DNA of 64,000 nucleotides. Origin: Ereboglobus sp. GTDB taxonomy: Bacteria; Verrucomicrobiota; Verrucomicrobiia; Opitutales; Opitutaceae. The stretch spans positions 1-64,000 of the forward strand of contig JARKRC010000058.1 of NCBI GenBank assembly GCA_029974595.1. Reading direction: 5' to 3'. The translations under genes were made by a program, and so were the position numbers. Under the pieces are notes generated by a model. That model saw only the letters and a list, made by a program, of their open reading frames with translations. It had not been told where the DNA came from and ran no database searches. This document shows positions 48,390 to 64,000 of the stretch, one piece after another; within the stretch, counting starts at the first letter, position 1, and each line of letters starts with the position of its first letter.

Positions 48390-48871
48390 GATTTACGATT
48401 TACAAATTACGATTTACGATTGAAGGAGCTTCGGCGGGGAGCGCCGGTGTTTTTTTAGGAATAGTTTTGCTGGCGGGTGCGGGTGGTGCGGAGGGCGGAG
48501 ACGATGATGGAGAGGATTTCAGTGGCTTCTTGCATGAGGGATTCGAGACGTTTTTGCGGAAACGTCCCGGATTCGGCGAGGAGTTCCATCCAGTAGCGGG
48601 TTTCGTCGCATTCTTCCTCCACGATCTTGAGTTTGTTCACGAAATCCGAAGTCGATTTGGCGCGGCAGGCGGCGCGATAATTCGCGCCGACCGATGTGCC
48701 GGAGCGGAGCATCTGGCGTCCAAGAATGTCGGGAACGCCGCCCTTGGGCGGCGCGTTCACGGCCTTGATGACACGCAGGGCGAAGGCCTTGGTGCGCTTG
48801 AGCATTTCTTCCTTGGTCATCGTGTCACTCCTTTCCGGCATTCGTAAATCGTAATTCGTAAATCGTAAATC
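48390..48871 (-). mobile_element. Putative heptad-TIR element carrying a four-helix-bundle gene, between sdhA and sdhB
   Basis: 32-nt inverted termini (48390-48421 vs 48840-48871, 30/32 match), each (GATTTAC)-type heptads; fills the sdhA-sdhB gap. Confidence 0.7.
48455..48820 (-). CDS. Four-helix-bundle protein (23S rRNA intervening-sequence protein / S23 family)
   Basis: ILGRQMLRSGTSVGANYRAACRAKSTSDFVNKLKIVEEECDETRYWMELL; SD-like AAAGGAGTG before ATG at 48820. Confidence 0.88.
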   Translation of the reverse strand: MTKEEMLKRTKAFALRVIKAVNAPPKGGVPDILGRQMLRSGTSVGANYRAACRAKSTSDFVNKLKIVEEECDETRYWMELLAESGTFPQKRLESLMQEATEILSIIVSALRTTRTRQQNYS

Positions 48872-59484: not shown

Positions 59485-59706
59485 ATGAACATCATCGCCC
59501 AAGTCGTTTCTTCCGGAATCACCGGCAATATCGCCAGCGCCCTCGGCCTCCTCGGAGCCGCCATCGGCGTCGGCATGATCGGCACCAAGGCCGCCGAGGC
59601 CGTGGGTCGCAATCCCGGCGCGTCCGGCAAAGTCCTCGTCCAAGCCATCATCGGCATGGCGCTCGCAGAAGGTCTCGGCATTCTCGCCCTCTTCCTCGCC
59701 CGATAA
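59485..59706 (+). CDS. atpE: ATP synthase subunit c
   Basis: GAAIGVGMIGTKAAEAVGRNPGASGKV…GMALAEGLGILALFLA. Confidence 0.96.
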   Translation: MNIIAQVVSSGITGNIASALGLLGAAIGVGMIGTKAAEAVGRNPGASGKVLVQAIIGMALAEGLGILALFLAR

Positions 59707-59724
59707 GACAATGCGAATGTGGCT

Positions 59725-59746
59725 GGCGCATGGCTTCTCATGCGCC
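59725..59746 (+). promoter_or_regulatory. Intercistronic hairpin after atpE
   Basis: GGCGCATG-gcttct-CATGCGCC, perfect 8-bp stem. Confidence 0.6.
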
Positions 59747-59804
59747 CGCCGCAAGCGCTTCCCCTCCGTTTTAGTCAGTAAGCAACCGCTCCTCGCCAAA
59801 CAAT

Positions 59805-60374
59805 ATGCTGCATACGCTCACACTCGCAGTCGTCGCCACACACGAAACCGCACAAGCCTCCGGGATATTGGACCAGCTCGGACTGGGTAAATTTGGCATC
59901 GAATGGCAGGCCGTCGTTTTCCAGATGATCAGCTTTCTGATCCTCTTTGGCGTGCTTTACTGGTTCGGCATCAAGCCCATCATCGCCACAATGGGCGAGC
60001 GCCAGAAAAAAATCGAGTCCGGCGTCGCCTATGCCGAACAGATGAAAAAAGAGCTCGAAGCCTCGCAGCAAAAACAGGAAGCCATCCTGCGCGAAGCCCA
60101 GGCCAAGGCGCAGCAAATCGTCGCCGACACCCAAAAAGCCTCCAAGGAATACGCCGACAAACAGCAGCAGGAATCCATCGCCAAGGCCGCCGACATCGTC
60201 GCCAAGGCCCGGCAGGCTGTCGAACTCGAGCACAAGAAAATGCTCGCCGACGCCCGCGGCGAAATCGCCCGCCTCGTCGTCGCCACCACCGAGCGCGTCC
60301 TTGCCAAACGGCTGACCGATGCCGACCGCGCCGCGTATAACGAAACCGCCGCAAAAGAACTCACCAACGTCTGA
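59805..60374 (+). CDS. atpF: ATP synthase subunit b
   Basis: N-terminal TM plus long charged coiled coil; operon position. Confidence 0.93.
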   Translation: MLHTLTLAVVATHETAQASGILDQLGLGKFGIEWQAVVFQMISFLILFGVLYWFGIKPIIATMGERQKKIESGVAYAEQMKKELEASQQKQEAILREAQAKAQQIVADTQKASKEYADKQQQESIAKAADIVAKARQAVELEHKKMLADARGEIARLVVATTERVLAKRLTDADRAAYNETAAKELTNV

Positions 60375-60376
60375 AA

Positions 60377-60562
60377 AAAGTAGGAAGTAGGAATTAGGAA
60401 TTAAGAAGTGCCAAGTCCGCGCGTTTCACGCGCAGAATCAAAAAAACGCCACGACCAACTCACAACTTCACATCAAGCCGTCACACCCATCTGCGCGCGA
60501 AGCGCGCGCTGTTGGGGCTGCAAGCCCCCACTTCTTAATTCATAATTCTTACTTCTTAATTT
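60377..60562 (+). repeat. ORF-less heptad-TIR element between atpF and atpH
   Basis: Inverted termini 60377-60410 and 60529-60562 (30/34), heptad AAGTAGG/AATTAGG/AATTAAG units; interior holds two hairpins. Confidence 0.7.
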
Positions 60563-60569
60563 CCCTCTG

Positions 60570-60971
60570 ATGAAAGCCGACAAACGCACGACACAACTCG
60601 CCCGCCAGCTCCTTAAATTGAGTCTCGACGCTGATGGACGCCCATCCGCTGAACGCGTTGCCGGAGTCCTCGCCTATATCGAAAAAACAAAACCCGCGCG
60701 CGCCCTTGCCCTCCTCCACGCGTATCACCGCCTGCTCGCCGTCGAAGTCGCGCGCACGCAGGCCGTCATCGAGCACGCCGGTCCCGTCAGCGACGCCATT
60801 GTCGAGCAAATCGCCGCCGTGATGACCCAAAAATACAACCGCCCCATCGTCGCTGCGCCCAAACCCGCCCCCGCGCTCATCGCGGGCCTCCGCATTCGTG
60901 TCGGCGATGACGTTTACGACAATTCCGCCCTCGGCGCCCTCAAGGAACTCGCCGACGCAACCGCCATTTGA
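60570..60971 (+). CDS. atpH: ATP synthase delta subunit (short form)
   Basis: Operon position; [26 protein letters not shown]-terminus. 133 aa. Confidence 0.85.
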
Positions 60972-60994
60972 AAGCCCCCCTCCGCCGCCATCCG

Positions 60995-61038
60995 TTTTTC
61001 CAAATCCTGATTTTCCACATTCCATTTTTCCAATTCCA
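60995..61038 (+). repeat. Degenerate ~7-nt TTTTCCA/CATTCCA run in atpH-atpA gap
   Basis: TTTTTCCAAATCCTGATTTTCCACATTCCATTTTTCCAATTCCA read directly. Confidence 0.5.
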
Positions 61039-61041
61039 GCC

Positions 61042-62565
61042 ATGACCGTCCTCGAACAAGTTGAAGCCCAAATCGCCCAACTCAGCAACCGCACCACAAA
61101 ACGCAACACCGGCACCATCCGCGCACTCGCCGACGGCGTCGCCCAAATCGACGGGCTTTCCGGCGTCATGTATAACGAAATGGTGCAGTTCCCCGGCAAC
61201 GCCATCGGCATCGCCCTCAACCTCGGCCAGGACGAAGTTGGCTGCGTCATCCTCGGCGACATCGCCAAGCTCAAGGAAGGCGACGAGGTCCAGACCACCG
61301 GCAAACTCCTCTCCGTCCCCGTCGGCAAGGCGCTCCTTGGCCGCGTCGTTGACGCTCTCGGACAGCCGGTTGACGGCAAAGGCCCCATCGACGCCAGAGA
61401 AACCTATCCCGTCGAACGCATCGCCCCCGGCATCATCGCCCGCAAATCCGTTTCCCAGCCCGTCTTCACCGGCATCACCGCCATCGACTCGATGATCCCC
61501 ATCGGACGCGGACAGCGCGAACTCATCATCGGCGACCGCGGCACTGGCAAGACCACCATCGCCATCGACACCATTCTCAATCAGGCCAAGATCAACAAAG
61601 TCGGCCTCGCCAGCGGCGACCCCAAGTTCCGCCCGATCTACTCGATCTACGTCGCCGTCGGACAAAAGAATTCCAATATCGTCCGCACCATCGCCACCCT
61701 CGAAGCGGCCGGCGCCCTCGAATACACCGTCATCGTTGCCGCCCCCGCCGCCGACAACGTCGCCAACCAATACATCGCCCCCTTCGCCGGCGCTGCCATG
61801 GGCGAGTGGTTCATGGAAAACGACATGGACGCGCTGATCATTTACGACGATCTCTCCAAGCACGCCGTCGCCTACCGCCAGATTTCGCTCATCCTCAAGC
61901 GTCCCTCCGGACGCGAAGCCTATCCCGGCGACGTTTTCTATCTCCACTCCCGCCTCCTTGAGCGCGCCGCGCGTCTCGACGGCAAAGGCTCCCTCACCGC
62001 GCTGCCCATCGTCGAAACCCTCGCGGGCGACATCTCCGCCTACATTCCGACGAACATCATCTCGATCACCGACGGGCAAATCTTCCTCGAAACCGACCTC
62101 TTCAACCAAGGCACCCGCCCCGCCGTCTCCGTCGGTCTCTCGGTTTCCCGCGTCGGCTCCGCCGCGCAAATCAAGGCCACCAAGCAAGTCGGCGGCAAAC
62201 TCAAGGGCGAACTTGCCCAGTTCCGCGAACTCGCCGCCTTTGCCCAATTCGGCTCCGACCTCGACGAACGCACCAAGAAGCAACTCGACCGCGGCTCCCG
62301 CATCGTCGAACTCTTCAAGCAACCCGCCAGCGCCCCCATTCCCATCGAGCAGCAATGCGTGACCCTCTGGGCCATGCAAAAAGGCTATTACGACGCCCTC
62401 GAAATCAAGGACATCATCCCGGCGGCGCGCAGCCTCCGCGAGTTCTTCGCCACCCGCAAGGACGCCCTCCTCGCCGAAATTCGCACCAAGGCCGCTCTCG
62501 ACAAGGACCTCGAATCCAAGATCAAAGCCGCCGCCGACGAGTGGAAACTCACGCAAAAAGCCTGA
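61042..62565 (+). CDS. atpA: ATP synthase subunit alpha
   Basis: [18 protein letters not shown], operon position. Confidence 0.98.
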
Positions 62566-62577
62566 TCACATACATTC

Positions 62578-62609
62578 CGACTTAAATCGACTTAAGTCGA
62601 TCTAAGTCG
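62578..62609. repeat. 10-bp-period near-palindrome in atpA-atpG gap
   Basis: CGACTTAAATCGACTTAAGTCGATCTAAGTCG; self-complementary apart from one mismatched pair. Confidence 0.8.
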
Positions 62610-62621
62610 ACTCCCGCACCG

Positions 62622-63515
62622 ATGCCATCAACCAGAGACATTCGCCGCCGAATAAAATCGGTTAAAAACACCCGCCAAATCACGAAAGCCATGGAGCTTG
62701 TCGCCTCTTCGAAGATGAAGAAGGCGCAGCAAGCCGCGCTCGCGGGCCGGCCCTACGCGATACTCCTCGCCTCGATGCTCGCCAATCTCGCGCCCCGCCT
62801 CGAAGAAGCGGACGACGTGCATCCCTTCCTCGCCAAGCGCGAAGTCAAAACCCGCGGTATCCTCCTCATCACGACCGACAAAGGCCTCTGCGGCCCCCTC
62901 AACACCAATCTCTTCAAACTCGTTTCCGACAACGTCCCGCGCTCCACTCCGGCCAAGTTCGTCTCCGTCGGACGCAAAGGCACCCAATACCTTGCGCGCA
63001 TGGGCCGCGACATGATCGCCGATTTCACCGTCAGCGACCGCATCACCTTCGCAGAGACCCGCGCCATCGCCCAATACATGGTGAAGCAATACCTCGAAGG
63101 CGCGATCGACACCATCGAAGTCATCTTTGCCGGATTCAAAAACACCCTCGTGCAAGTCCCCCGTCTCATGCCCGTGCTTCCCCTTGCGGATCTCGCCGGC
63201 ATGGTTCAAACGCTTCGCACGCAGGACGCCGCGGCCGGCCACGCTCCCGACACGCGCGACCTCATTTACGAGCCCAGCCCCAAAGCCGTGCTCGACGCCC
63301 TGCTTCCCTTCTACGTGAACCGCGTCGTCCACCAATACTTCCTCGGCGCGCGCGCTTCCGAGCACAGCGCCCGCATGGTCGCGATGAAAACCGCCAAGGA
63401 CAACGCCACCAAGCTCCTCGACAACCTCACGCTCAAATACAACAAGGCCCGCCAGACCGCGATCACCAACGAAATCCTCGAAATCGCCGCCGCCAGCTTT
63501 GCTGCGCAAAGCTGA
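62622..63515 (+). CDS. atpG: ATP synthase subunit gamma
   Basis: RDIRRRIKSVKNTRQITKAMELVASSKMKKAQ; C-terminal RQTAITNEILEIAAAS. Confidence 0.97.
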   Translation: MPSTRDIRRRIKSVKNTRQITKAMELVASSKMKKAQQAALAGRPYAILLASMLANLAPRLEEADDVHPFLAKREVKTRGILLITTDKGLCGPLNTNLFKLVSDNVPRSTPAKFVSVGRKGTQYLARMGRDMIADFTVSDRITFAETRAIAQYMVKQYLEGAIDTIEVIFAGFKNTLVQVPRLMPVLPLADLAGMVQTLRTQDAAAGHAPDTRDLIYEPSPKAVLDALLPFYVNRVVHQYFLGARASEHSARMVAMKTAKDNATKLLDNLTLKYNKARQTAITNEILEIAAASFAAQS

Positions 63516-63518
63516 CCG

Positions 63519-63957
63519 AAAGTAGGAAGTAGAAATTAGGAATTAGAAAGTCATGAGCACTGAAAAAACAGACCTGAAAGATCGCACCTTCCTTTATGCA
63601 AGGCGCATCATTCGTCTGTTCTCGGCGCTCTCGAAAACCGACGTTGCGCGGATATTGGGAAAACAATTTCTCCGCTCGGGCACCTCGGTCGGCGCCAATT
63701 ATCGTGAGGCCTTTCGTTCCCGCTCGCGTGCCGAGTTCCTTGCAAAAACAGGCGACAGCCTGAAAGAAATCGAAGAGACCGCCTACTGGCTCGAACTCCT
63801 TGAAGCCGAAAACATCGTCAAGCCAGCGCGCCTCGCCCCTCTCATTGATGAAACCCGCCAACTCATCGCCATTTTCGCCACCATTACCAAGACAACCAAA
63901 ACGCGCAGTCTGTCAGTCTTACCCACTTCCTAATTCCTAATTTCTACTTCCTACTTT
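63519..63957 (+). mobile_element. Putative heptad-TIR element carrying a four-helix-bundle gene, between atpG and atpD
   Basis: 33-nt inverted termini (63519-63551 vs 63925-63957, 32/33 match), heptads AAGTAGG/AAGTAGA/AATTAGG/AATTAGA; starts 4 nt after the atpG stop and ends 3 nt before atpD ATG. Confidence 0.75.
63553..63933 (+). CDS. Four-helix-bundle protein (23S rRNA intervening-sequence protein / S23 family)
   Basis: ILGKQFLRSGTSVGANYREAFRSRSRAEFLAKTGDSLKEIEETAYWLELL, same core as 48455-48820. Confidence 0.88.
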   Translation: MSTEKTDLKDRTFLYARRIIRLFSALSKTDVARILGKQFLRSGTSVGANYREAFRSRSRAEFLAKTGDSLKEIEETAYWLELLEAENIVKPARLAPLIDETRQLIAIFATITKTTKTRSLSVLPTS

Positions 63958-63960
63958 ATT

Positions 63961-64000
63961 ATGACCGGCAAAATCACCCAAGTCCTCGGCGCCGTCGTTG
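63961..64000 (+). CDS. atpD: ATP synthase subunit beta, N-terminal fragment (window end)
   Basis: ATG ACC GGC AAA ATC ACC CAA GTC CTC GGC GCC GTC GTT = MTGKITQVLGAVV. Confidence 0.9.
   Translation, partial: MTGKITQVLGAVV

Follow-up and report, generated by a model that had tools for sequence, protein, structure and literature searches.

An ORF-less heptad-array element between atpF and atpH of Ereboglobus sp., probably a non-autonomous member of a mobile family with IVP-encoding partners

The atpF-atpH gap of Ereboglobus sp., within the 64,000-nucleotide stretch of DNA analysed here (the window), is occupied by a 186-bp ORF-less inverted repeat (60377-60562, no strand assigned) whose interior is absent from the same gap of 20 relatives. 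This element probably belongs, as a non-autonomous member, to a family of small mobile elements that we call IVP heptad-array elements. In full members of the family, two tandem 7-mer arrays of about 30 nt, in inverted orientation, enclose a gene for an IVP/S23-type four-helix-bundle protein, and the whole lies co-directionally between operon genes; short members retain the arrays and have hairpins in place of the gene. The family is large, seems to propagate by way of intergenic gaps in bacterial operons, and is apparently undescribed in the literature searched, of which coverage was partial.

The arms of the atpF-atpH element, located by an inverted-repeat search, are 34 nt long, lie 118 nt apart and are complementary at 30 of 34 positions (88%), in agreement with a preliminary description made from the sequence. 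The left arm (60377-60410, forward strand) reads A-AAGTAGG-AAGTAGG-AATTAGG-AATTAAG-AAGTG and the right arm (60529-60562, reverse strand), when inverted, A-AATTAAG-AAGTAAG-AATTATG-AATTAAG-AAGTG, and the 7-nt periodicity of the arms is 0.78. As the description had also held, there is no plausible ORF in the interior. Three GC-rich hairpins are found there on the forward strand: GCGCGTTTCACGCGC (60419-60433), which is kept in the atpD-atpC copy introduced below, GCGCGCGAAGCGCGCGC (60493-60509), and GGGGCTGCAAGCCCC (60514-60528), which abuts the right arm and has a likewise placed counterpart in two further copies on contigs C17 and C61. The first two take part in an inner inverted repeat (60418-60436 / 60490-60508). 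The two REP-like hairpins of the preliminary description are both real, and the one at 60419-60433 had been overlooked. Folded as RNA, the element reaches -77.7 kcal/mol against a shuffle mean of -41.0 (z = -9.9), and the region 59700-64000 has no Rfam match. Upstream, the stop codon of atpF (ATP synthase b, PF00430; 59805-60374, forward) lies 2 nt before the element, and downstream atpH (delta, PF00213; 60570-60971, forward) starts 7 nt past it. TCTGA stands on both sides of the element, a repeat of a length that is frequent by chance.

A second element carrying the same word was located by the inverted-repeat search in the atpG-atpD gap (63519-63957, forward), with arms at 63519-63551 and 63925-63957 that match at 97%; its left arm and that of the atpF-atpH element agree at 30 of 33 positions, which reproduces the earlier figure. 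It contains a 126-aa IVP, or four-helix-bundle, ORF (PF05635; 63553-63933, forward), whose stop codon falls within the right arm and whose product matches PDB 2RLD by sequence (E=1.5e-19), as well as 2GSC. The transcript of this element also folds strongly (z = -5.8), and TGACCG flanks it on both sides. The two had been proposed to be an autonomous element and its MITE-like derivative. What holds of this proposal is that the atpF-atpH element is ORF-less, bounded by terminal inverted repeats (TIRs), and has terminal words in common with an element in this operon that carries an ORF. The supposedly autonomous partner, however, encodes only the IVP four-helix-bundle protein and no transposase. 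Moreover, the interiors of the two elements are unrelated, thus an origin of the atpF-atpH element by internal deletion from the atpG-atpD copy is rejected; its sister is instead an element in the atpD-atpC gap just outside the window (C37:65402-65524, 85% over 121 nt). The left array of that sister (G000, contig C37, 65357-65400, past the window end) contains the atpD stop codon, so insertion of the sister altered the C-terminus of the beta subunit. The window has only two other inverted heptad arrays, each enclosing a PF05635 ORF: the atpG-atpD element and one in another operon (48390-48871), where inverted GATTTAC heptads bracket the ORF (48500-48808, reverse strand). Single unpaired arrays are seen in two more gaps of the atp operon, one of 10-mers (CGACTTAAGT) between atpA and atpG (62572-62612) and one of 7/8-mers (TTTTTCC) between atpH and atpA (60972-61042).

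The atpF-atpH element is one of many, judging by genome-wide counts from searches and samples. Its left-arm pattern, with up to three mismatches allowed, has 43 matches in the genome and none for a reversed-pattern control, and 18 paired elements could be aligned, nearly all of the same word class. In addition to the atpD-atpC sister, the interior has partial copies at C17:92522 and C61:87887. All four copies of the interior found in the genome lie within inverted heptad arms, which argues against the hairpins being an unrelated REP family. The interior-bearing elements that were tested all lie between co-directional genes. Shuffled DNA yields only 0-1 inverted heptad arrays in more than 1 Mb, and chance or simple slippage repeats are rejected on this ground as the source of the arrays. 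At one locus (L010 2041-2296; C8:6180-6435), an inverted pair of AGAATCT heptads is nested in a GAAGTAG-type inverted pair.

The association of such arrays with IVP genes is close. All seven PF05635 ORFs above the family cut-off in this genome are surrounded by inverted tandem arrays, with seven different words (GGAGTCA, GATTAA-like, GATTTAC, GAAGGGT, GAAGTAG, TTTTCGA and AAATCCC). Across the family, 32 of 35 IVP loci have an inverted-repeat score above 11, mostly with period 7. Control atpH flanks have a median score of about 9 and lack periodicity, except at L043, which has real elements; a further set of family loci agrees in most cases. Among IVP relatives from other phyla, inverted arrays are seen at roughly 17 of 28 loci, and about ten of the 28 have no significant array. 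Most relatives in Verrucomicrobiota, Chloroflexota, Delta-/Pseudomonadota, Bacteroidota and Cyanobacteria are bracketed, and so are most plasmid copies examined (Chloroflexota, Cyanobacteria, Bacteroidota). Word similarity tracks IVP protein identity (r = 0.49, Mantel 0/2000, n = 67), and the words of IVP genes within one genome are unrelated; together these indicate that arrays and IVP ORF evolve as one unit. The protein-word correlation would also be expected from mere co-inheritance of arms and ORF, and in this respect counts against the explanation we favour. Some IVP genes sit within defence loci, between cas2 and cas1, between csx2 and cas1 or beside the DISARM gene drmD (L284, on a Nostoc plasmid, L282 and L285). 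The Planktothrix IVP gene (L285) has AATCCCC heptads on its flanks. Heptanucleotide repeats are known in cyanobacteria, and these heptads resemble them.

ORF-less arrays follow the IVP genes and their words. In random 20-kb samples, ORF-less inverted arrays of period 7 number 23 per 1.18 Mb in genomes with IVP versus 1 per 0.40 Mb in genomes without it (binomial p = 0.008, approximate because of clustering). For 15 of these 23, the best-matching word is that of an IVP element in the same genome, versus 4.6 expected, and this own-genome assignment ranks first among all 120 label permutations. An ORF-less copy of the TTTTCGA class in G003 and the IVP copy at L036 have both sub-terminal regions in common (75 nt at 91%, 51 nt at 90%), and by its sequence the ORF-less copy reads as a true derivative with the classical signature. 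One word recurs in several atp gaps around an IVP copy in G000, G001 and G036, and in G001 and G003 an AGGAGTC cluster spanning about 7 kb combines a single IVP copy with several ORF-less ones. The word AGTAGCG of two sampled ORF-less elements of this genome matches no IVP element found in it. In G006, which lacks PF05635, inverted arrays of period 8 occur (L231-L240; words GACGCGAA and GGAAATCA), possibly a sister system with another helper.

One may argue that the atpF-atpH element is a MITE-type element moved by an ordinary transposase such as RAYT/Y1, with ends that resemble those of IVP elements by coincidence. The hairpins are indeed REP-like, and Y1_Tnp is found in 53 of 61 family genomes, with six matches in this one. 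Nevertheless, the own-genome word matches and common sub-terminal sequence are specific, every copy of the interior found lies within heptad ends, and G019, in which neither Y1_Tnp nor RVT_1 was found, has five IVP matches, one of them confirmed with inverted heptads; we therefore regard a transposase-driven MITE as unlikely. A retroelement, in which the operon transcript is copied in trans by a reverse transcriptase (RT) and IVP acts like the diversity-generating retroelement (DGR) accessory protein Avd, is very unlikely. IVP is structurally homologous to Avd (PMC10053308), strict co-direction inside operons would suit an RNA route, and this genome has two RVT_1 matches, but 37 of 61 family genomes gave no RVT_1 match, among them G004, G005, G032, G062, G080 and G081 with 8-13 IVP matches, and no RT lies beside the IVP ORFs examined. 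With RVT_1 undetected in these 37 genomes and Y1_Tnp in G019, neither enzyme is a general requirement, and both were rejected as obligatory helpers, each having gone undetected in some of the IVP-bearing genomes searched.

Comparison of the atpF-atpH gap in relatives, also suggested by the preliminary description, gives no sign of a conserved spacer. None of the 20 relatives has this interior. In 15 the gap is 11-56 nt long and array-free (G003, G024, G006, G023, G025, G004, G022, G028, G005, G032, G027, G009, G007, G008 and G015), four have an inverted array with another word (G001, AATAATG; G036, AGGCTGAA octads; G017, TTTTCGA; and G026), and one, G002, has a direct array of 9-mers. The atpF-atpH element is hence an insertion. 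Turnover is also evident between G001 and G003, which belong to one genus and are 92-96% identical over the atp operon: in G001 the F-H gap is occupied by an ORF-less element, H-A by one with an IVP gene, and A-G by a second ORF-less one of the same word; G003 has none of the three. In the syntenic DNA of the two genomes, five elements are present in one genome only and 5-6 are common to both. The gap differences are mostly wholesale replacements, not clean insertions, so a target duplication is unreadable there; in addition, direct repeats at the two flanks show no excess over 67 elements (810/5000 permutations). Immediately ahead of the inserted elements of G001, the final 25-40 nt of atpF and of atpH diverge sharply from G003, against 92-96% identity in the rest of these genes (L099 3194-3240 and 3699-3735 versus L101). 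If the elements were ancient, immobile relics that recombination and not transposition had carried from gap to gap, this would suit the same-word clustering in one operon, the wholesale replacement of gaps and the lack of target duplication. Against this, elements of one word occur on many contigs in unrelated gaps and array ends recur without flanking homology, and relics spread in this way are highly improbable.

Gene directions were assigned by a codon model that was correct for 19 of 19 validation genes (assignment by longest ORF is wrong in GC-rich DNA and was dropped). By this model, 42 of 44 confidently placed IVP ORFs point the same way as the genes on either side, and 35 of 36 ORF-less elements fall between tandem genes, versus 105 of 133 background gaps (Fisher p = 0.005). 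Furthermore, an element's two arms agree with one another more closely (0.77) than with arms of other elements of the same class (0.56; 0/5000). That the atpF-atpH element is an immobile host-made spacer, an mRNA-processing or insulator stem shaped by fast repeat slippage with IVP as a passenger, is scarcely credible: the strong RNA stem, pairing arms and operon-gap location would suit it, but the interior copies at four loci, the genome-wide arm matches, the empty or different gap of relatives, and the own-genome word matching and IVP-dependence all speak against it.

In the mobile-family explanation, the IVP protein, which in a relative of solved structure is a pentameric ring, would recognise the heptad periodicity at both ends of an element and, together with a host nuclease/polymerase or recombination function, would copy elements of the same word into near and distant operon gaps. 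Because the partner encodes IVP and no transposase, we can only infer that ORF-less elements are mobilised by IVP in trans. In the operon mRNA, the arms would pair into a stem of about 33 bp that may be cleaved by RNase III, as in 23S-rRNA intervening sequences (IVSs), which fits both the predicted fold and the arm pairing. Such cleavage would make insertion between cistrons tolerable, and this tolerance would in turn explain why both kinds of element survive almost only inside operons. Several points count against the explanation: no catalytic activity is known for IVP, movement has yet to be seen, and target duplications are not in excess. The AGTAGCG word, the period-8 arrays of G006, the wholesale replacement of gaps and the cross-phylum loci without a significant array also weigh against it.

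Among known systems, the closest kin are the IVSs of 23S rRNA genes (S23p/IVP) in Coxiella, Leptospira and others, with which heptad-array elements have PF05635 in common. The terminal inverted repeat of an IVS forms an RNA stem of about 28 bp that is cut by RNase III, and the Coxiella IVS has (GACAGAT)n heptameric repeats ahead of its ORF (PMC4990558). However, IVSs reside in 23S rRNA genes, whereas heptad-array elements occupy the gaps of mRNA operons, with many copies in a genome, have heptad arrays as both arms, use many words and include ORF-less versions. The atpF-atpH element itself is sited in the atp operon rather than in 23S rRNA and lacks the S23p/IVP ORF, which its partner at 63519-63957 has, and a terminal stem is predicted for it. 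Nearest in behaviour are Correia/NEMIS, ERIC and RUP MITEs. Correia/NEMIS elements of Neisseria are roughly 100-155 bp long, intergenic and without a transposase gene, and their TIRs pair in mRNA that is processed by RNase III (PMC10969869, PMC2229807); their TIRs are a sequence of about 24 bp with a target duplication, whereas heptad-array elements have tandem heptads of variable word, no detected duplication and an IVP-encoding partner. ERIC, RUP and other bacterial MITEs are likewise short interspersed intergenic repeats, and RUP has ends in common with its presumed mobiliser IS630-Spn1 (PMC2229807), but they differ from heptad-array elements in the latter's tandem-array ends and partner without transposase. 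As a MITE would be, the atpF-atpH element is short, ORF-less, bounded by TIRs, multi-copy and polymorphic for presence, but the partner sharing its ends encodes IVP (PF05635) and no transposase. In DGRs, Avd is a four-helix-bundle protein homologous to PF05635 (PMC10053308), but no RT adjoins the IVP ORFs examined and most host genomes gave no RVT_1 match. REP/RAYT systems also have small GC-rich intergenic hairpins, but here the hairpins lie inside heptad ends, and G019 has IVP heptad elements without a Y1_Tnp match. Tandem heptad inverted ends with variable words and an IVP partner are found together in none of IVS, Correia/NEMIS, ERIC and RUP as described, and the literature searched, with partial coverage, describes heptad-array ends for no IVP element other than the Coxiella IVS.

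A broader reading, which we put forward tentatively, is that these elements may represent a mobile class that itself encodes no transposase, recombinase or RT, in which a pentameric four-helix-bundle protein of about 120 aa reads 7-nt periodicity and mobilises ORF-less copies of matching word between operon gaps, with rRNA IVSs as a special case that landed in an rRNA gene. A Xanthomonas IVP relative has been described as a homopentamer (PMC4990558). If periodicity rather than a fixed sequence were recognised, each lineage could have its own, rewritable terminal word.

Genes for PF05635 "four helix bundle" proteins are common and unexplained. They often lie in operons, CRISPR and DISARM loci among them, and an analysis of co-occurrence could there wrongly take them for functional partners or defence genes. 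If they are mobile elements with heptad-array ends, this would account for the gene family as well as for how the 23S IVSs arose, and the heptanucleotide arrays of cyanobacteria may be another trace of such elements. Mobility of heptad arrays, if true, would also account for a share of the intergenic turnover in these genomes and offer a system in which movement independent of any known transposase can be tested.
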